The notes under the pieces are model-generated. The model saw nothing but the letters and a program-made list of their open reading frames with translations, had not been told where the DNA came from and ran no database searches. This document shows positions 5,214 to 25,328 of a stretch of DNA of 25,328 nucleotides, piece by piece. This stretch comes from a virus. The stretch covers positions 1-25,328 of IMG/VR virus record IMGVR_UViG_3300037189_007380; one strand, given 5' to 3'. Position numbers and translations under genes: made by a program. The first letter of the stretch is position 1, and each line of letters starts with the position of its first letter.

Positions 5214-5501
5214 ATGGTAGGTCGCAAGATTGAGCCACCCGCGAGAAACCTTTTGCCCGTGCTTATGCGAGGCGCGGCGTGTATAGAAGCTGACCCATCG
5301 TTATTCGATGCAACTGGTGGGGTGCTCGCTAGATACGCGCTGGACTATTGCCGGAAGTGCGATGTGAAGAAAGAGTGCGAGCAATTTGTGAACCCGAAGA
5401 AGTCTTTCTTTGAGGGCGTGTGTGGCGGCAAGGTTTGGTTGAACGGTAGGAATATCAATTTGCTTTACAGGGGCGATGGTGGCGATAGAATAATGGCGTG
5501 A
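5214..5501 (+). CDS. WhiB-family iron-sulfur transcriptional regulator
   Basis: A 95-residue WhiB-like protein. The four cluster-binding cysteines are C23, C46, C49 and C55, giving C-x22-C-x2-C-x5-C. The surrounding residues fit the family: ACIEADPSLFD around the first Cys and YCRKCDVKKECEQF around the other three. The usual G-[VI]-W-G-G turn is present as GVCGG at 68-72, with Cys70 replacing the Trp. WhiB proteins bind a 4Fe-4S cluster and act with the principal sigma factor at promoters in Actinobacteria. GAGAGGGG lies 3-4 nt before ATG 5214. It sits directly ahead of the head genes and may control them or host genes. The Trp-to-Cys change may alter sigma contact or redox behaviour (inference). 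Confidence 0.92.
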   Translation: MVGRKIEPPARNLLPVLMRGAACIEADPSLFDATGGVLARYALDYCRKCDVKKECEQFVNPKKSFFEGVCGGKVWLNGRNINLLYRGDGGDRIMA

Positions 5502-17304: not shown

Positions 17305-18317
17305 AGGGATAACCATTCGGGGTGAGCGAGCGTCCATTTGATAGTGCGCTCTAACGACTCCTCTAGCGACAATGGTGCTGTCCATCCTGCGGTAGCGATC
17401 TTTTCCCCATCTAGGGCGTAACGCAAATCGTGTCCTGGGCGTGATGAATGAAAGTCAATCAACTCGTAACGCAACGGTTTGCCGATAATCGACGCGATCA
17501 TCTCAGCCATTTCAAGATTATTCACTTCGCGCTCTCCAACAACATGCCACTTATTAGGCACAAGCGAATCGCCATACTTGACATTAGGCTGGTCTAGCGC
17601 GAACAACAATGCGTCGGCTTGATTCCTTGCATGTAGGTAGAACCTTGACCCGATCTCCCCGTTTGGTGACGCATGGATTGGGACAATCTGATCGGAAAGC
17701 ACTCGCTTTATCACCATTGGTACGAACTTCTCAGGGTCTTGCATTTCCCCAATAATGTTCATTGTGTTAGTGATTGTGAGCAGGGTTCCATACGTGCGCC
17801 AATACGAGTAAGCAATTGACTCTTGCGCTGCTTTAGATGCGGAGTAAGGATTGCTTGGATAGTAAGCATCCACCCATTCACGATGAGCGTGCCCAAGGGG
17901 AGCAGGACCGTACACCTCATCGGTAGAAACATGCACGAATGATTGCAATTCCGGCAAGTAGTCCTTTGCGTAATCCAACATGTTCACCATCAAAGCCACG
18001 TTATTCACGATGAACGAAGCGGGTTCGATGATTGAGCGATCAACGTGGGATTCGCTAGCCACATTAAGTATGTAATCAACGGTGCCGATTTCTTCGGCAA
18101 GTACGGGCGAAACTGGGGCGATCAAATCGTGGACGAGTACCTTAGTTCGGGCGAACGTTGGGTCTAAGCCTGCGATTGCCAAACGGATTCGATCGGTTAT
18201 CCCACGATGCCGGAATGAGACAAGGCATACGACCTTATGGTCTGTGTTCGCCAAGATATGGCGTAACACATGTGATCCGACGAAACCAGATGCACCCGTG
18301 AGCAAAGTCGTTGTCAT
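17301..18317 (-). CDS. dTDP-glucose 4,6-dehydratase-like extended SDR
   Basis: A 338-residue extended SDR. TGASGFVGSH (7-16) binds NAD, ASESHVDRSI (88-97) is the signature of RfbB-type dehydratases, and the active site is STDEVYG (131-137) with YSASK (158-162). The Asp-Glu pair is needed for water elimination in dTDP-glucose 4,6-dehydratases. The C-terminal half holds NKWHVVGEREVNNLEMAE and RPGHDLRYALD, both typical of RfbB/CDP-glucose dehydratase. It would make a 4-keto-6-deoxy sugar nucleotide. ATG 18317 is fused by ATGA to the TerL stop and preceded by GGTGG; GTG 18323 would add two residues. Last gene of the long minus-strand operon, immediately after TerL. Confidence 0.9.
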   Translation of the reverse strand: MTTTLLTGASGFVGSHVLRHILANTDHKVVCLVSFRHRGITDRIRLAIAGLDPTFARTKVLVHDLIAPVSPVLAEEIGTVDYILNVASESHVDRSIIEPASFIVNNVALMVNMLDYAKDYLPELQSFVHVSTDEVYGPAPLGHAHREWVDAYYPSNPYSASKAAQESIAYSYWRTYGTLLTITNTMNIIGEMQDPEKFVPMVIKRVLSDQIVPIHASPNGEIGSRFYLHARNQADALLFALDQPNVKYGDSLVPNKWHVVGEREVNNLEMAEMIASIIGKPLRYELIDFHSSRPGHDLRYALDGEKIATAGWTAPLSLEESLERTIKWTLAHPEWLSL

Positions 18318-19858
18318 ATCCACCCGCTTGTTTGTGTGATGCTCAACGGAGCAACATTAGGGATAGTCTTTTCTGGCGGCTCAAACAACGCTAACAATAA
18401 CGCCTCAGCGCGATCAGGGCTATTCAATCCTCGGCGTTTCATATCGACTTTAGATTCGATTTGAATTTTGCCCGAACTATTAGTCTTGTAGGTGGGTCCA
18501 GTCAATTGCGCTACAGTCTTGCGATCAACGTCTAGCATTATGCCAACCCTGCCAGTTTCATCAGGTTGGATCATTTGCCGCATCGTCCACCACATCTCGG
18601 CTTTTTGGGACACGAACTTGTTGTTATCGTGCGCTCTCTCTGCGACGTTCACAGGAACGATTGTGGAATGGTGGCGTCCCTCTTTACCCCATTCCTCCAA
18701 AAGGCCTACAACACCCCACCCCAAGCCGATACTGTCCACTTTCACGCGGACTGGCTCCGCTATCCCACGCGATTGTTGGTCTTTCTCTGCTTCATGTATA
18801 TGCTCTAGCACAATTCCAGATACTTCCACCGCAGTACGCGAGTACGCGGAAGCGTGCATTACTCGCCCTAGGTCGCCGTCGAAACGCGCTACAACAAACT
18901 CGTCGCCGCCTTCCGCAGCAACATCAACCCCTAGGCGAATAGCCCCTTCCAATTGGTACTCGTCGGTAACAACGTTCTCTAGCCAAGTAATCGGAAGCGT
19001 AACGTTAGTTGTGTTGCGCGGGAATCGAGCAAACACACGGGCTTGTACAAACGGCGATTCCTCCCCGAACTCGCGAATAACTTCATCAACCCATTCATGA
19101 TCTACAAGGTTGTGTCCCCACTTACCTACATGTTCGCCCGTGAAGTTGGGCGTATCGAAAGCGGGGATTGGAATAACGTTGTAGAGGTCGCTATTGCATG
19201 TACGCTCAAACCAAGAGCCTTGATTATCGGTCGGAGGGTTACCCAAAACAAGCAAGCGTGTATGCCCACCAGTCATTAGTGCTTCAAGCGCGGTTCCGAT
19301 TGTTTGGCTAATACCGCCAGCCTCATCAACCACGACCAATAAATGCTCAGCGTGGATACCCTGCAACGCGGTTTCATTATGATCAGCGGGGGAGAACCCG
19401 TCCGCAACAACAATCCCGTCTACTTGCCAATTCGCCGTAAACACTTCCCCAACCATGCCATGAGCGGCATGCAATCTACGGATGTGCGCCCAAAGGATGT
19501 TCTTGACCTGACGGTATGACGACGCGGTAGTAACGACACGGGCTGTACCAATCGGATGCGACGTAATCCACCACGCCACAATACGAGCAGCAATATGCGA
19601 TTTACCCGGAGCGTGACAAGCCGGAACCGCAGTTCGCTTATTGTCACGGACGCTTTCAAGAATCTCTATCTGCTTAGACCAAACGTCCTCACCAATACCT
19701 TTAGTAACGAAAGATACTGGATCGTCCTCAAAACGAAGCCAAGGATTGCTTGCCCTATCGGACAAGATTTTACGGAGCGCGAACTTTTGCTCCGGGGTCG
19801 CTGCAGCAAATAACTTACGGCGTTGCTCCGGGGTTGCCCTTAGTATCTCGTCAAGCAT
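18314..19858 (-). CDS. Terminase large subunit
   Basis: A 514-residue packaging motor with both domains. The ATPase has a deviant Walker A ACHAPGKS (80-87), Walker B LLVVVDEA (173-180, Asp178/Glu179) and coupling motif VLGNPP (204-209). The nuclease has acidic residues in RLGVDVA (Asp312), VKVDSIG (Asp375) and SPDRAEAL (Asp482), a normal RNase H-like triad. Length is typical. It uses ATP to pump DNA through the portal and cuts the concatemer. Its start overlaps the TerS stop by 8 nt. Unusually, it lies on the opposite strand from its portal partner and is followed by a sugar dehydratase. Confidence 0.95.
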   Translation of the reverse strand: MLDEILRATPEQRRKLFAAATPEQKFALRKILSDRASNPWLRFEDDPVSFVTKGIGEDVWSKQIEILESVRDNKRTAVPACHAPGKSHIAARIVAWWITSHPIGTARVVTTASSYRQVKNILWAHIRRLHAAHGMVGEVFTANWQVDGIVVADGFSPADHNETALQGIHAEHLLVVVDEAGGISQTIGTALEALMTGGHTRLLVLGNPPTDNQGSWFERTCNSDLYNVIPIPAFDTPNFTGEHVGKWGHNLVDHEWVDEVIREFGEESPFVQARVFARFPRNTTNVTLPITWLENVVTDEYQLEGAIRLGVDVAAEGGDEFVVARFDGDLGRVMHASAYSRTAVEVSGIVLEHIHEAEKDQQSRGIAEPVRVKVDSIGLGWGVVGLLEEWGKEGRHHSTIVPVNVAERAHDNNKFVSQKAEMWWTMRQMIQPDETGRVGIMLDVDRKTVAQLTGPTYKTNSSGKIQIESKVDMKRRGLNSPDRAEALLLALFEPPEKTIPNVAPLSITQTSGWI

Positions 19859-20330
19859 CGTCGCCGGATTCCGGCTCCCCGTCCTGTTGCAAGATTTCCT
19901 TGACTAGCATTTCCAACTCGTCGCTAGAAACATGCACGTTAATAGGCCCATTGTTGGGACCGCTAACCTCGGCTTTAACTTGTCGTCCCCACATTTGCGG
20001 GTTGCTTCTCTCAAGCCACCAAGCGGCAGCCTGCCAAGTTGTTTGCGCCGCCGTTGTAATGAAGTGAACGTTACGGACCATTGCAATTGCCCTGGCCTCC
20101 TCAACATCATCACGGAAGGCTAGGTAGAGTTCGTCGTTTTCTGTTAGTTCTTCGTTGTTATCCAACTTTGCGGCAGCGTTATCGCCTTTATCTAGCCAAC
20201 GATACAAAGTTGGTCGGCTAATTCCTGCGTAAGCGGCAGCCGTATCGACATAACTACCGTCGCGTAGAGCCCCAACTATCTTTGCATGCACTTCTGGGGT
20301 GAGCCGCAACGAAGATCGCTTGCGTGCCAT
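19851..20330 (-). CDS. Terminase small subunit
   Basis: A 159-residue protein. The N-terminal helix-turn-helix (AKIVGALRDGSYVDTAAAYA, then GISRPTLYRWLDKG, ending near residue 49) is the DNA-binding domain that recognises the packaging start site. A central helical region (YLAFRDDVEEARAIAMVRN) forms the oligomer core. WWLERSNPQMWGRQ (about 105-118) is a family feature, and the acidic C-terminus (ELEMLVKEILQQDGEPE) likely contacts TerL. ATG 20330 has GGAG and AGAGG nearby upstream. Translationally coupled to TerL (8-nt overlap). Identity is strong from the HTH plus the adjacent TerL. Confidence 0.9.
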   Translation of the reverse strand: MARKRSSLRLTPEVHAKIVGALRDGSYVDTAAAYAGISRPTLYRWLDKGDNAAAKLDNNEELTENDELYLAFRDDVEEARAIAMVRNVHFITTAAQTTWQAAAWWLERSNPQMWGRQVKAEVSGPNNGPINVHVSSDELEMLVKEILQQDGEPESGDDA

Positions 20331-20813: not shown

Positions 20814-22127
20814 CTAGAGCCGTGATGTGATGGTCTTTGGACGCGTGAAGTCGCGTAGCGCATCCATTGAAAGGTCAATCCCTTGCCCACTAGATCCCCT
20901 TCCAGAGTGCGGCAATTCGGGCGATTGAACTAGGTGGCAATTCACCCAAACCTCGCCACCGTTAATCTTCGGAGCCAAAGTCAATGCTGACGTATGGCTT
21001 GAAGTGTGAATTGAACAACCCAATGCTTGCGGCATGGAGTTGGCTTTCTCAATAGCATCATCAACGGTATCGACTCGCTCAACCGTTAGAACTGGTCCGA
21101 ACACTTCCTTCTCCACCGCTTCCCCAACAGCATCAATCAACACCGTCGCCGGGAAGTAGTACCCATCAGTAGGCGCAGCGCCCCTAGCCCCAATCGAATA
21201 CTCTGTATTAGCAACCATTGAGCGAACACGATTGAGTGCTTCACTTGAAATCAACGGACCAAAATCTGTAGCGTTACGAGATTGCGCTTCTCTAGCCAAC
21301 GCATTTACAAAGTCAGCTTGCTTCCCAACAACAATAACTCTTGCGGGAGAGGCGCACGATTGTCCAGCGTTGTATGTAGATGCATCTACAAGGATGCGCG
21401 CTGTATCTAGTGGGGCGTCGGGCAAAACGACAGCCGCGCCGTTACCACCCAACTCAAGTGATACTGGCTTGATACCAGCTGCCGCAGCAACCGAATACCC
21501 TGCGGAAACAGAACCTGTGAAAGCCAACCCGTCTAATGCGCGAGTCACTGCAAGTCTTTTACCAACGGAATCGCTGCCGGGAACAACCTCAACGATTCCC
21601 TCTCCGAGATAGCAACGAGCCACGCGCGCAACCTCAACAGCGGTTTCGGGAGTCTCATAAGCAGGCTTCACAACGGCAGTATTACCAACCGCAAGGATCG
21701 GGCCAAGACGCCAAGCAAGCATCATCATTGGATAGTTCCACGGCAAGATAACACCGATTGTGCCAAGTGGCTCCAACACAACAGATGAGAAGTAACCGTC
21801 TATGTATTTGCCAGCGGAAGGCGCAGTGGCAACGCGAGCAGCACCCGCATAGAATCGAATAACGTCAATAGCACCTTCTACTTCCGCAAGCGCCTGCGAC
21901 CTCGGCTTCCCAGTGCCAAGACACTCAAGGTCGGCAAGAACCCCGCGCTTAACGTACAAGGCTTGCGTGAAATGCGTTAGAGCCAACGCCCTTTCCGCTG
22001 GGGTTTTTTCAGCCCAAGTCTTAGCCGCATTTCTTGCTCTACTAATTGCGTCACCCAACTCAACGGATGAAGTTTCATAGCTTTCCCCGCGAGGCTTACC
22101 CGTACGCGGATTGTAGAGCGTACCCAT
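20814..22127 (-). CDS. Aldehyde dehydrogenase, aminobutyraldehyde DH-like
   Basis: A 437-residue NAD(P)-dependent aldehyde dehydrogenase that should oxidise an aldehyde to the acid. From ATG 22127, the catalytic Cys is about residue 258 (YNAGQSCASPAR), the general base Glu about 225 (LELGGNG) and Asn about 131 (PWNYP), with AFTGS and KEVFGPVL also present. It is 40-60 residues shorter than usual at the N-terminus. The C-terminal VWVNCHL-QSPELPHSG then GQGIDLSMDAL resembles gamma-aminobutyraldehyde dehydrogenases. A TTG at 22172 would extend it by 15 residues, which is unlikely. One base separates it from the cupin stop (TAGCATG). It is an unusual phage cargo; the substrate is not known. Confidence 0.9.
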   Translation of the reverse strand: MGTLYNPRTGKPRGESYETSSVELGDAISRARNAAKTWAEKTPAERALALTHFTQALYVKRGVLADLECLGTGKPRSQALAEVEGAIDVIRFYAGAARVATAPSAGKYIDGYFSSVVLEPLGTIGVILPWNYPMMMLAWRLGPILAVGNTAVVKPAYETPETAVEVARVARCYLGEGIVEVVPGSDSVGKRLAVTRALDGLAFTGSVSAGYSVAAAAGIKPVSLELGGNGAAVVLPDAPLDTARILVDASTYNAGQSCASPARVIVVGKQADFVNALAREAQSRNATDFGPLISSEALNRVRSMVANTEYSIGARGAAPTDGYYFPATVLIDAVGEAVEKEVFGPVLTVERVDTVDDAIEKANSMPQALGCSIHTSSHTSALTLAPKINGGEVWVNCHLVQSPELPHSGRGSSGQGIDLSMDALRDFTRPKTITSRL

Positions 22128-22128
22128 G

Positions 22129-22569
22129 CTAAGCAAACTTCGCAGAGGAAACGACGCTACCGTCCCAATCAACGAGCGTCATACGCTCGGGCGACGCGAC
22201 GGGCTTATGCGGAGAACCGAAAGCCGCAAGCACATGGAACTCATTATCGCCTGCGCCAACAGCATGCGGGATCAGTCCGGGCACCATGTAAAGATCGCCG
22301 GGCTTTACCTCGTAGGTACGTCGCCCAATTGAGATTGATCCTGTCCCTGCGACGCAAAGCAAAAGATGATCGCCAGGATGCGTGTGAATCGGGAATGAGT
22401 CCCCGGCTTCGACTCGGAGTAAATCAACGCCAAGGTTACCGTTAGTGTGAAGCGGGACGCCAATTGCTGGGGCACCCCAAACCTGAACGCCCTCATCAAG
22501 AATCTTATGTTGCAACTCAAAGATGTTCGTGATGATGAGTGAGTTTTCGTTGTTGCTAACGTCAGGCAT
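22129..22569 (-). CDS. Cupin-domain protein
   Basis: A 146-residue single-domain cupin. Motif 1 is GDSFPIHTHPGDHLLLCVAG (about 77-96) with His84 and His86 as metal ligands, followed by a His rather than Glu in the usual third position. Motif 2 is PGDLYMVPGLIPHAV with its own His. The barrel end is HVLAAFG. Cupins in this class include sugar isomerases, epimerases and dioxygenases. AAGGAG precedes ATG 22569 by 5 nt, a strong start. It is directly upstream of the aldehyde dehydrogenase in the same operon, so it may act in the same pathway. Which chemistry it performs cannot be told. Confidence 0.85.
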   Translation of the reverse strand: MPDVSNNENSLIITNIFELQHKILDEGVQVWGAPAIGVPLHTNGNLGVDLLRVEAGDSFPIHTHPGDHLLLCVAGTGSISIGRRTYEVKPGDLYMVPGLIPHAVGAGDNEFHVLAAFGSPHKPVASPERMTLVDWDGSVVSSAKFA

Positions 22570-22581
22570 TGCTACTCCTTA

Positions 22582-23109
22582 TTAAGTTAGTTTGCACTTC
22601 GGGAAAGAATTGTAGTAACGAATGTAAGGCAACCAAATCCAATTGTAATGCTGCCAACCTGACCATGCACCGTATTGGGTTGTGTCCATTGATTTACCGT
22701 CGCCGCTCAATCCCCACGGTCGCCAATACGTCCCCTTCTTGCTCATGTACTTGTAGACAATTTGGCTTTGCCGTAACGGATTGAGCATCGCGGCGCGAGA
22801 CCACCACTTGTTATGCGAGTGCGCTGACGTTTGCACTTGCCAGTAACCTAACGCTCCGCTGAACCATGGACTACTTTCGGACAGGTTTTGTCCCTTGCTC
22901 TCTCGCATCACGATCCCGTATGCAATTTGCAATTTGTTTCCCGTGAAACCAGCATTGTGAAGAATCTTCACGGTTCGACACTCCCCAGCGGAAGCAGGGG
23001 AATGAACCCCCGTTAGGGAAGCCAGGACAAAGGCTGTCACAAGAACAAGAGCCTTACTTATCCCCAGGTACCCAGCCGTTGTTGAAGTCTTTCTTGGCTT
23101 TGCGCGCAA
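22582..23109 (-). CDS. Secreted lysozyme / transglycosylase-like protein
   Basis: A 175-residue exported protein. Basic residues 1-19 are followed by a hydrophobic core (about 20-33) and a PASAGEC cleavage region near 42, a Sec signal peptide. The mature part has IAYGIVMRESKGQNLSE with Glu70 as the probable catalytic acid, then GALGYWQVQ and a DP-like LNPLRQSQIVYKY and WRPWGL. This E--G, G--Q--, NP---A--- and W-PW order is that of lysozyme-like transglycosylases. C44 and C172 may form a disulfide. It starts with TTG 23109, with GAGGAG 7 nt upstream, inside the ParB-like gene (56-nt overlap). It lies far from the main lysis cassette; role unproven. Confidence 0.78.
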   Translation of the reverse strand: MRAKPRKTSTTAGYLGISKALVLVTAFVLASLTGVHSPASAGECRTVKILHNAGFTGNKLQIAYGIVMRESKGQNLSESSPWFSGALGYWQVQTSAHSHNKWWSRAAMLNPLRQSQIVYKYMSKKGTYWRPWGLSGDGKSMDTTQYGAWSGWQHYNWIWLPYIRYYNSFPKCKLT

Positions 23110-23563
23110 TGGAATCTCCTCGCATCTTTAGGCGCAGAACCTCCTCAGGTTCCATGCCAAGTCGCTTGCTGATTTCATCTTCCGACAGTCCAGCCTCCAA
23201 AAGATCAATAACAATATTGGACATTTGAACGACGTAATGCGAGCCGCGTGCGCGATTGTGGCGAATTGTCGCAAGACGCGAATCGCTCTCGTTAATCTTC
23301 AATCGCACTACGGGGCAAAGCCCACCAGCGAGCGCAGCAACTTGCTTATCCTGCGACGCTAGTGTCCAACGATGGAACCCGTCAACGATCTCGCCGTCCG
23401 GGTGCGCCACAATTGGCTGCGTCCAACCGTTTTCCATAATGCTCAACTTGAGCAATTTCATTTCGGGCGGTGCGACCTTGTTCGGATTGTAGTTATTTGC
23501 CCTCAACTTTTTTGGATCAACCCATTCAACTTTAGACAAAGGATGATCGTCAGGCTTCCCCAT
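23054..23563 (-). CDS. ParB/Srx-domain protein, IbrB-like
   Basis: A 169-residue protein with a ParB-type fold: LRANNYNPNKVAPPEMKLLKLSI, NGWTQPIVAHPDGEIVDGFHRW (a G-x-VDG-HR motif) and LATIRHNRARG, then a helical C-terminus with a possible HTH (EDEISKRLGMEPEEVLRL). This arrangement matches IbrB-like proteins, which are encoded with a PAPS-reductase-family partner (IbrA) in phages and E. coli. ParB/Srx domains bind CTP or ATP or act as nucleases in different families; which applies is unknown. ATG 23563 has GGAG 8 nt upstream. It overlaps the PP-loop gene by 14 nt. Confidence 0.83.
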   Translation of the reverse strand: MGKPDDHPLSKVEWVDPKKLRANNYNPNKVAPPEMKLLKLSIMENGWTQPIVAHPDGEIVDGFHRWTLASQDKQVAALAGGLCPVVRLKINESDSRLATIRHNRARGSHYVVQMSNIVIDLLEAGLSEDEISKRLGMEPEEVLRLKMRGDSIARKAKKDFNNGWVPGDK

Positions 23564-24791
23564 TATTATTCTCCAACTCAAACTCCCAAAGCCGTCCAGC
23601 CCTGGTCACATTGTCTAGTTCATTGTTGTACTTCTTGAGCATTGGCTCAAAGTCTGGCTTGCTTGGGTCGGAGAAGTGCCGCGCCATTTGCGCTTTCCTT
23701 CCCTTGTCGTCTCCTCGCATGGCGATCTTCCCAATGATTTGCCAAGTCACGCCGCCGCGAGGGTGCGCGCTATCTTCCATGATCGGAGTAGATACAGCCT
23801 TGTAGTGACCATTAATCATGGTGCGAATTGTGTAGATAGCCTTACCGCGAGACTTTTCCTCCAACCCGCCAGCCAACTCGTAGATGTAGTCCTTCCACGA
23901 GATATCGACAGGCTTCTCAAGGCGATCATTGAACGCATACAACTCTGTATTGGAGTAACGCGCCGCTGTTGCTGCGCCGGGAACGCGGTAAACCATCTTG
24001 TCCCAAATCTCAGGGAATCCCTCACGAAACACCCAAAGTTTCTGCATCGGCTCCTCGCCGTATGGCGGGGCGCAACGCTGTTGCGACGGGCTAATGCCGA
24101 GCATTTCAAGAATGTCGTAGGCGCGATTGTAATCCCAACCAAACATGGCAGGCGCAGTCCACACATCTTCGGTGCGGAAGTCATAGATCGGAAGAACCTT
24201 GGCTACGCCGGGCCGAAGGTTGATGATCCAATTATCTTTCTCTCGCTTAGCCACTTGCATGTATCGACCAAGCGACTCATCAGCGCGGATACCAAGCGCA
24301 AATGCCGTTGATCCTTTTCCGTTACCAAGGAAGTCTGCAAATGTTGCCCAACCGGGACGCTTCTCTAACGGCAAATCGTCAATCAACGGATGCGAAGTGA
24401 TTGCATGCTCCGGCAATGGTCGAACCCATTTGTCCTTCTCGTCAGGATTCCATGGGTACCAATATGACTCATCCCGCGCACAAGCGTTACGACATGGCAA
24501 GGATACGCAGTACCACTCTAGTTTGATACGCGGATCTTGCCTACGTCGCTCAACGTATTCGACCGTTTGCCAAGGGATCGCTTCCTCATCGAAAAAGACC
24601 ACGCGTTGCGGTAGACGATCACGCTTCTCTGCTTCTTCAAGCACAAGTTCCAAAACGGTAGTTGAGTCTTTACCGCCTGAGAATGACACTACGATCTCAT
24701 CGAAAATGTCGAACGCGTGCGCTACTCGCTCTTTAGCCATTTCGTAAACGTTACGGTCTACTTCTTTTTTCTTGCGAATCATCTTTCCCAT
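23550..24791 (-). CDS. PAPS reductase-family PP-loop protein, IbrA-like
   Basis: A 413-residue adenine-nucleotide alpha-hydrolase of the PAPS reductase/DndC superfamily. The PP-loop SFSGGKDST spans residues 36-44. DEEAIPWQT and a WYCVSLPCRNACARD cluster with three cysteines follow, then LGISPSQQRCAPPYGEE and YRVPGAA. The long C-terminal region (DUF3440-type) ends with MARHFSDPSKPDFEPMLKKY. IbrA-like proteins share this layout and pair with IbrB-like ParB proteins. It may activate sulfate or sulfur chemistry or modify a nucleic acid, but no activity is established here. The start at 24791 is preceded by AAGGAG at 11 nt, a longish spacing. It sits between two ParB-like genes. Confidence 0.87.
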   Translation of the reverse strand: MGKMIRKKKEVDRNVYEMAKERVAHAFDIFDEIVVSFSGGKDSTTVLELVLEEAEKRDRLPQRVVFFDEEAIPWQTVEYVERRRQDPRIKLEWYCVSLPCRNACARDESYWYPWNPDEKDKWVRPLPEHAITSHPLIDDLPLEKRPGWATFADFLGNGKGSTAFALGIRADESLGRYMQVAKREKDNWIINLRPGVAKVLPIYDFRTEDVWTAPAMFGWDYNRAYDILEMLGISPSQQRCAPPYGEEPMQKLWVFREGFPEIWDKMVYRVPGAATAARYSNTELYAFNDRLEKPVDISWKDYIYELAGGLEEKSRGKAIYTIRTMINGHYKAVSTPIMEDSAHPRGGVTWQIIGKIAMRGDDKGRKAQMARHFSDPSKPDFEPMLKKYNNELDNVTRAGRLWEFELENNNGEA

Positions 24792-24812
24792 TGAGGCTTC
24801 GGCTCCTTCCTA

Positions 24813-25328
24813 CTACGGAGAATCCAAGTAGCACTTAGCGATATGCGTTAGGGCTTGCGGAGCCTCAATCGAATACAACTTCTTTGCATGATTGATCGCC
24901 GCAATGATTACTTCGCGTTGGTCAGAATCAAAACCGTACGGAAGCGAATACTTGTCCTTATCCCCGAAGTCGGAGTCAGTCTTTGGAACCCCAGGATCAA
25001 TGTCGTCAAGGAAGCCGGAAGGGTTGTAGTCATCATTGTCAAGGTCAAGGGAGAAGCCAATGTCTTCAATCTCGAAACCTGTGTCGTTAAGAGCGATCAA
25101 CTGGCTAGCAAGGAGTTCGGAATCCCAATCCCCAAGTTCGGATGATCGATTATCGGCAAGCGCAAATGCTCGGGCTTGATCTTCTGTCCAATCGGCGGGG
25201 ACGCGCGTAATGAAAACGTCCGTCCAGCCAAGTGACTGTGCTGCCTCTAGTGTTCCATTACCCGCGATAATGGTGTCGTTCCAAACGACAAGGGGTCGTC
25301 GCTGCCCGAACGATGCAAGGCTGCTAGC
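24813..25328 (-). CDS. ParB-like protein, partial (start beyond right edge)
   Basis: An open frame runs in from the right edge and stops at TAG 24813, giving 171 visible residues. The first part reads SFGQRRPLVVWNDTIIAGNGTLEAAQSL (ParB core with its I-AGNGTL-AA turn), followed by VPADWTEDQARAFALADNR, ELGDWDSELLASQL and an IGF segment. This series is typical of ParB-domain proteins that accompany or are fused to DNA modification methylases. An acidic linker and a YGFDSDQREVIIAAI domain end it. It may be a stand-alone ParB or the tail of a larger protein. A 21-nt gap separates it from the PP-loop gene. Confidence 0.82.
   Translation of the reverse strand, partial: ASSLASFGQRRPLVVWNDTIIAGNGTLEAAQSLGWTDVFITRVPADWTEDQARAFALADNRSSELGDWDSELLASQLIALNDTGFEIEDIGFSLDLDNDDYNPSGFLDDIDPGVPKTDSDFGDKDKYSLPYGFDSDQREVIIAAINHAKKLYSIEAPQALTHIAKCYLDSP

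Follow-up and report, generated by a model that had tools for sequence, protein, structure and literature searches.

The locus considered here raises the question of what function is served by a PP-loop protein of the PAPS-reductase class, IbrA, and a ParB-fold protein, IbrB, when their genes lie together between a further ParB-like gene (ParB1) and the terminase genes of a phage. IbrA and IbrB are widespread in phages and occur in E. coli K-12 as ybdN-ybdM; the annotation they routinely receive is PAPS reductase or partition protein, and no biochemistry of either protein was described in the literature searched. The window, meaning the whole stretch of DNA analysed, is a 25,328-base IMG/VR virus contig from a phage known solely from metagenomes. 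We read its block as a version of a phage module for modifying DNA (or nucleotides) that can be exchanged for others and is situated between a ParB gene that stays in place and the terminase genes, a tentative assignment to which we give a probability of about 0.48.

Gene content of the locus

The three minus-strand open reading frames of the block are real, with the coordinates originally assigned to them (Table 1). The ParB1 and IbrA genes are separated by 21 bp, the IbrA and IbrB genes overlap, and IbrB may start at a TTG (23581) or an ATG (23563). The original prediction was right as to these three genes and overlooked a cupin gene and an aldehyde dehydrogenase (ALDH) gene, which belong to the same operon farther downstream. 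IbrB is followed by a lysozyme-like gene, cupin, ALDH, two small ORFs, and the small and large terminase subunit genes (TerS and TerL). The lysozyme-like SLT_3 gene was absent from the place between IbrB and cupin in the other cassettes examined.

Table 1. Genes of the window from ParB1 to the large terminase subunit
Gene	Position	Strand	Description
ParB1	24813..25328	-	3' part of 204-aa gene; phrog_498 E=1.1e-23, phrog_620, phrog_723
IbrA	23550..24791	-	413 aa; PP-loop, PAPS-reductase-like + DUF3440; phrog_2302 E=5.6e-85
IbrB	23054..23581	-	175 aa; ParB/Srx-fold; phrog_2159 E=8e-63
Lysozyme-like protein, predicted secreted	22582..23109	-	Pfam SLT_3
Cupin, CupB type	22129..22569	-	Pfam Cupin_2
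ALDH	20814..22172	-	Pfam Aldedh E=6e-101
TerS	19851..20330	-	phrog_4102; downstream boundary of the slot
TerL	18314..19858	-	phrog_2; downstream boundary of the slot

Elsewhere in the window, a 95-aa WhiB-like protein is encoded on the plus strand at 5214-5501 (Pfam Whib above cut-off); to our knowledge WhiB proteins are restricted to Actinobacteria and their phages, and the gene therefore suggests an actinobacterial host. Sugar-related genes occupy 127-2418 on the minus strand, namely a DXD glycosyltransferase (127-780), an NAD-dependent epimerase (762-1775) and a probable glycosyltransferase recognised by eye and lacking a Pfam match (1750-2418).

IbrA carries the PP-loop SGGKDST at residues 38-44 and matches both Pfam PAPS_reduct (PF01507) and DUF3440 (PF11922) above cut-off; next to it, IbrB has a ParB fold and the invariants of its family, which identifies the two as an IbrA/IbrB pair. 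With the predicted structure of IbrA (pLDDT 87.8), Foldseek retrieved the FAD synthase PAPS domain and APS/PAPS reductases, while a sequence search yielded no close homologue among solved structures. Comparison of 14 diverse IbrA proteins, E. coli YbdN among them, shows most of the PP-loop to be invariant together with positions such as R22, D68, E70, W114, R124, G167, R169, E172, S173, R176, P201, D204, D209, Y225, R239, P243, P260, and Y279, and no cysteine is conserved. The PP-loop fold is held in common with the PAPS reductase CysH (Foldseek E about 1e-5), but IbrA possesses the extra DUF3440 domain, and the catalytic C-terminal motif of CysH (ECG[LI]H, or more broadly ECG[LIT]H) is absent from the window protein and from all 14 members examined. 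PAPS reduction for sulfur assimilation was rejected because this catalytic cysteine motif is missing.

The predicted structure of IbrB (pLDDT 85.3) combines a ParB/Noc N-domain with an HTH, and conservation over 43 sequences highlights the motifs DGFHR and HNRARG together with HTH-like helices. DG[FY]HR is universal. At the position that alignment and the known features of ParB assign to the ENxxR motif, IbrB has His, Met, or Ile in place of the Glu found in ParB. DGFHR and NRxRG are conserved as far as YbdM and E. coli IbrB. E. coli and prophage IbrA/IbrB, and YbdN/YbdM of K-12, likewise form an adjacent, overlapping pair, sharing with the window pair SGGKDS, D68, E70, R169, and E172 in IbrA and NxYNPN, DG[FY]HR, and NRxRG in IbrB. 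However, the E. coli pairs lack cupin and ALDH and are located elsewhere, whereas the window pair lies between ParB and terminase with both. Distant pairs from Streptococcus, Mycobacterium, and Microcystis phages resemble YbdNM in having no cupin and a different location. PADLOC returned only weak, loop-level DndC/BrxP and generic MTase_II matches for the window genes.

ParB1, cupin and ALDH as neighbors of IbrAB

Scanning with IbrA retrieved a contig of 100% identity (IMGVR_UViG_3300032318_000833, here G001; 50,390 bp), of which the window represents positions 22538-47865 reversed. ParB1 is complete on G001 (22439-23053) as a stand-alone gene of 204 aa, the window edge being a contig cut, and this led to rejection of the idea that ParB1 is a piece of some longer gene, whether unrelated or fused to a methylase. 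Only a short tail follows its ParB domain, and there is no methylase attached to it or in its vicinity. Its similarities are to ParB families and, within ParB-methylase families, to the ParB portion. Genes upstream of ParB1 on G001 encode HTH_17, SSB, HNH, an HTH_36 replication-type protein, a PD-(D/E)XK nuclease, and Rad52. No ParA ATPase was found among the neighbors of ParB1, which are replication, packaging, and metabolic genes, so the locus was not classed as ParABS.

Among the loci of 80 IbrB relatives taken from IMG/VR, 40 have at least 2.6 kb of upstream sequence, and in 36 of these ParB1 lies on that side, on the same strand; within 2.6 kb downstream it was present in 0 of 65, near-duplicates being counted in both cases. 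When loci were dereplicated at 80% IbrA identity and those recruited by cupin were left out, 35 clusters had enough flanking sequence, and these contained IbrB in 34, ParB1 in 29, and cupin in 25 instances. The isolated Arthrobacter phage Kovu (PQ184785) has the gene order ParB-IbrA-IbrB-GNAT-TerS-TerL, with the first three genes as gp5-7 and GNAT as gp8. The ParB-IbrA-IbrB arrangement thus recurs widely.

As ParB-like genes often precede the terminase, a control was assembled from relatives of two terminase families of these phages, limited to dereplicated loci whose upstream sequence reached 4 kb or more. ParB1 preceded the terminase in all six loci with IbrAB and in 14 of the 17 without (Fisher 0.54). 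Since most of these IbrAB-free controls also have it, ParB1 is a regular inhabitant of the region before the terminase and no specific partner of IbrAB, and its originally proposed place as specific third component of the unit is not supported by the control.

Cupin and ALDH are specific partners of IbrA-IbrB. Every close viral relative found of cupin A (21/21), cupin B (5/5, in three independent clusters), and ALDH (6/6, also in three independent clusters) adjoins IbrA-IbrB. In the terminase control, a cupin occurred in five of six loci with IbrAB versus 0/17 without, and the latter value differs from the 25/35 IbrAB clusters not recruited via cupin (Fisher 4e-7). On the IbrA tree, the position of the cupin changes at least 11 times and its presence only 5 times, so that cassette content is kept while order shuffles, and the linkage is not one of frozen synteny. 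The window cupin has putative metal ligands (H62, H64, and H102), and the catalytic Cys273 and Glu240 of ALDH are present. Neither cupin A nor cupin B had a match in named phages among 50,697 records; ALDH matches in named phage records reach only ∼34% identity, and many of these records look like host sequence. Literature searches that combined PAPS reductase with a ParB, a cupin, or the terminase turned up no published description of the cassette.

Around the fixed core of IbrA and IbrB, other phages exchange in SDR, GNAT, a second PP-loop protein, a class-II glutamine amidotransferase (GATase), an amidoligase, or an SSF transporter. A GATase_6 gene directly precedes IbrA in four clusters (L296, L040, L287, and L315), always with a second PP-loop gene nearby, while the cassette of the window has no GATase; amidoligase is found in two clusters (L036 and L300). 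The fullest cassette, on a 97-kb viral contig (L315:5165-11227), comprises ParB1, cupin B, second PP-loop protein, GATase-II, IbrA, IbrB, and ALDH. Divergently oriented Amidoligase_2-like genes adjoin ParB-SET-IbrA-IbrB-cupin cassettes at L054:2626-3726 and L300:1862-3389, the latter locus additionally having a divergently oriented GGACT-like gene. A protein of ∼160-171 aa with no Pfam match is inserted between IbrA and IbrB in L077 (5499-6008), L091, L284 (5499-6011), L286, and L292.

Occupants of the same position in relatives lacking IbrAB

The ParB-to-terminase interval holds recognized DNA-modification genes in 11 of the 17 IbrAB-free controls. These are TET-like oxygenases (L149, L151, L158, and L218; a match under the Pfam cut-off, 31.9 versus 34.9 bits), TET-associated glycosyltransferases (TAGT; L151, L180, L187 with E=3e-40, and L218), C5 methylases (L133 with E=2e-61, and L255, upstream of whose methylase no ParB1 was found), an N6 methylase (L222) and a ParB-N6-methylase fusion (L233), and two Mom-like proteins in tandem between the ParB and terminase genes (L244:4163-5572; E=8e-33). 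An asparagine-synthase-like PP-loop protein is also encoded in the slot beside the C5 cytosine methylase of L133 (3457-4317). The strict count of 11/17 was used; an automatic tally of 14/17 included weak N6-methylase matches overlapping ParB or lying outside the slot.

In loci that contain IbrA, no match to the TET, TAGT, C5/N6 methylase, or Mom-like families exceeded 100 bits. A Pfam scan of 105 other ORFs in IbrAB slots gave no DNA methylase, TET, or TAGT and one generic methyltransferase among the families listed (25 of 34). The difference in slot DNA-modification genes, 11/17 controls versus 0/35 IbrAB clusters (Fisher p 2e-7), was obtained with search models seeded from the controls, of which only 17 had enough upstream sequence. 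IbrAB cassettes accordingly sit in the slot that phages with related terminases use for TET/TAGT, Mom-like, and ParB-methylase genes, but contain other enzyme families instead.

Because related phages keep known DNA-modifying enzymes in this same spot, the IbrA-IbrB-cupin-ALDH cassette is probably an uncharacterized way to modify phage DNA. The DNA-modifying role that the original prediction offered for its trio is, for that reason, now the favored reading, but with the second ParB no longer a specific member.

Proposed chemistry and competing explanations

The IbrAB module would employ adenylation chemistry rather than sulfate reduction. In the mechanism envisaged, cupin and ALDH (or SDR and GNAT in other phages) would make or tailor the group to be activated, with ALDH converting an aldehyde to a carboxylate; IbrA would spend ATP to adenylate this carboxylate or a similar group; and the group so activated with AMP would then be joined to ammonia or an amine in the manner of GAT-QueC or AsnB. 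IbrB would bind a nucleotide and present the substrate, whether nucleotide or DNA; ParB1 may serve to bring any module of this kind onto DNA; and the likely benefit would be the shielding of phage DNA from host nucleases. The occurrence of GATase and amidoligase with ALDH, SDR, and GNAT suggests this sequence of a carboxylate being made, activated, and joined to an amine or ammonia. A described precedent for the joint use of a GATase and a PP-loop enzyme in modifying phage DNA is phage 9g, which places deoxyarchaeosine in its DNA by means of GAT-QueC, a GATase-II plus PP-loop enzyme (PMC5567051). The likeness lies in the coupling of a class-II glutamine amidotransferase to a PP-loop enzyme, as in the four IbrA relatives with GATase; IbrA, however, is of the PAPS-reductase/DUF3440 class and not QueC, no preQ0 pathway genes were seen, and the window cassette lacks a GATase. 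A broader proposal, that these cassettes form a new family of phage DNA hypermodification systems with an adenylating IbrA and nucleotide-binding IbrB as core, interchangeable tailoring enzymes, and a shared ParB as DNA-loading partner for several unrelated modules at the same slot, is possible but less probable.

An unlikely but not negligible alternative is a small-molecule pathway, either auxiliary metabolism or the making or breaking of a signaling metabolite, in which IbrA activates a free metabolite and nucleic acid is left unmodified. ALDH, SDR, GNAT, cupin, and the SSF symporter are typical small-molecule enzymes, the ParB-fold protein SerK can phosphorylate free serine (PMC5120207), and the SSF transporters and SET proteins of some cassettes fit such a pathway as well as or better than modification. 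Yet the slot otherwise houses DNA-modification genes, and no complete known metabolic route is recognizable in the cassette. Slightly less probable still is that IbrAB helps to activate transcription of the late genes of the phage as a co-activator, the neighboring metabolic genes being regulated cargo. This would agree with the E. coli proteins being described as activators of prophage eib genes in a statement of PMC6008420 that cites Sandt 2002, which argues against the modification reading, as well as with the ParB-like HTH region retained in IbrB and the position of the cassette at the start of the late genes. A regulator is difficult to reconcile with the full ATP-binding PP-loop and ∼20 invariant polar or aromatic residues that IbrA keeps across phyla, with the strict accompaniment of IbrAB by cupin and ALDH, or with an HTH helix in IbrB that is nearly invariant (G142, E147, and R150) where an operator reader should diverge.

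The pre-terminase region might instead be a cargo hotspot, co-occurrence reflecting location and not joint function; ParB1 behaves exactly so in the control, but cupin A, cupin B, and ALDH were never found apart from IbrAB in viral scans and are absent from the controls, and content is retained while gene order is shuffled, making this explanation improbable for the cassette. Least probable is sulfur chemistry by a DndC-like phosphorothioate or base-thiolation system: IbrA has a PP-loop of the PAPS-reductase class with weak, loop-limited similarity to DndC, its C95 and C104 are nearly invariant in the window's clade, and DndB-DndC similarly unite a ParB-superfamily protein and a PP-loop ATPase in one operon (PMC10853773), but both cysteines are absent in Kovu and YbdN, no DndA, DndD, or DndE was recognized in the window operon, and the cassettes showed no cysteine desulfurase. 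Family-wide cysteine-based sulfur transfer through C95/C104 was dropped on these grounds, and phosphorothioation, which had been raised for this phage, is disfavored because the IbrA family lacks a conserved cysteine.

Returning to DNA modification as the preferred reading, the slot comparison and the strict linkage of cupin and ALDH sharpen a vague annotation to a testable claim, namely that of a module replacing TET-glycosyltransferase, Mom, and methylase modules, and the claim can be tested now in Kovu, an isolated phage with the core trio. If true, it would mean a new chemistry for phage DNA modification and a function for IbrAB, and it would suggest the ParB beside the terminase to be a general partner of phage DNA-modifying enzymes.
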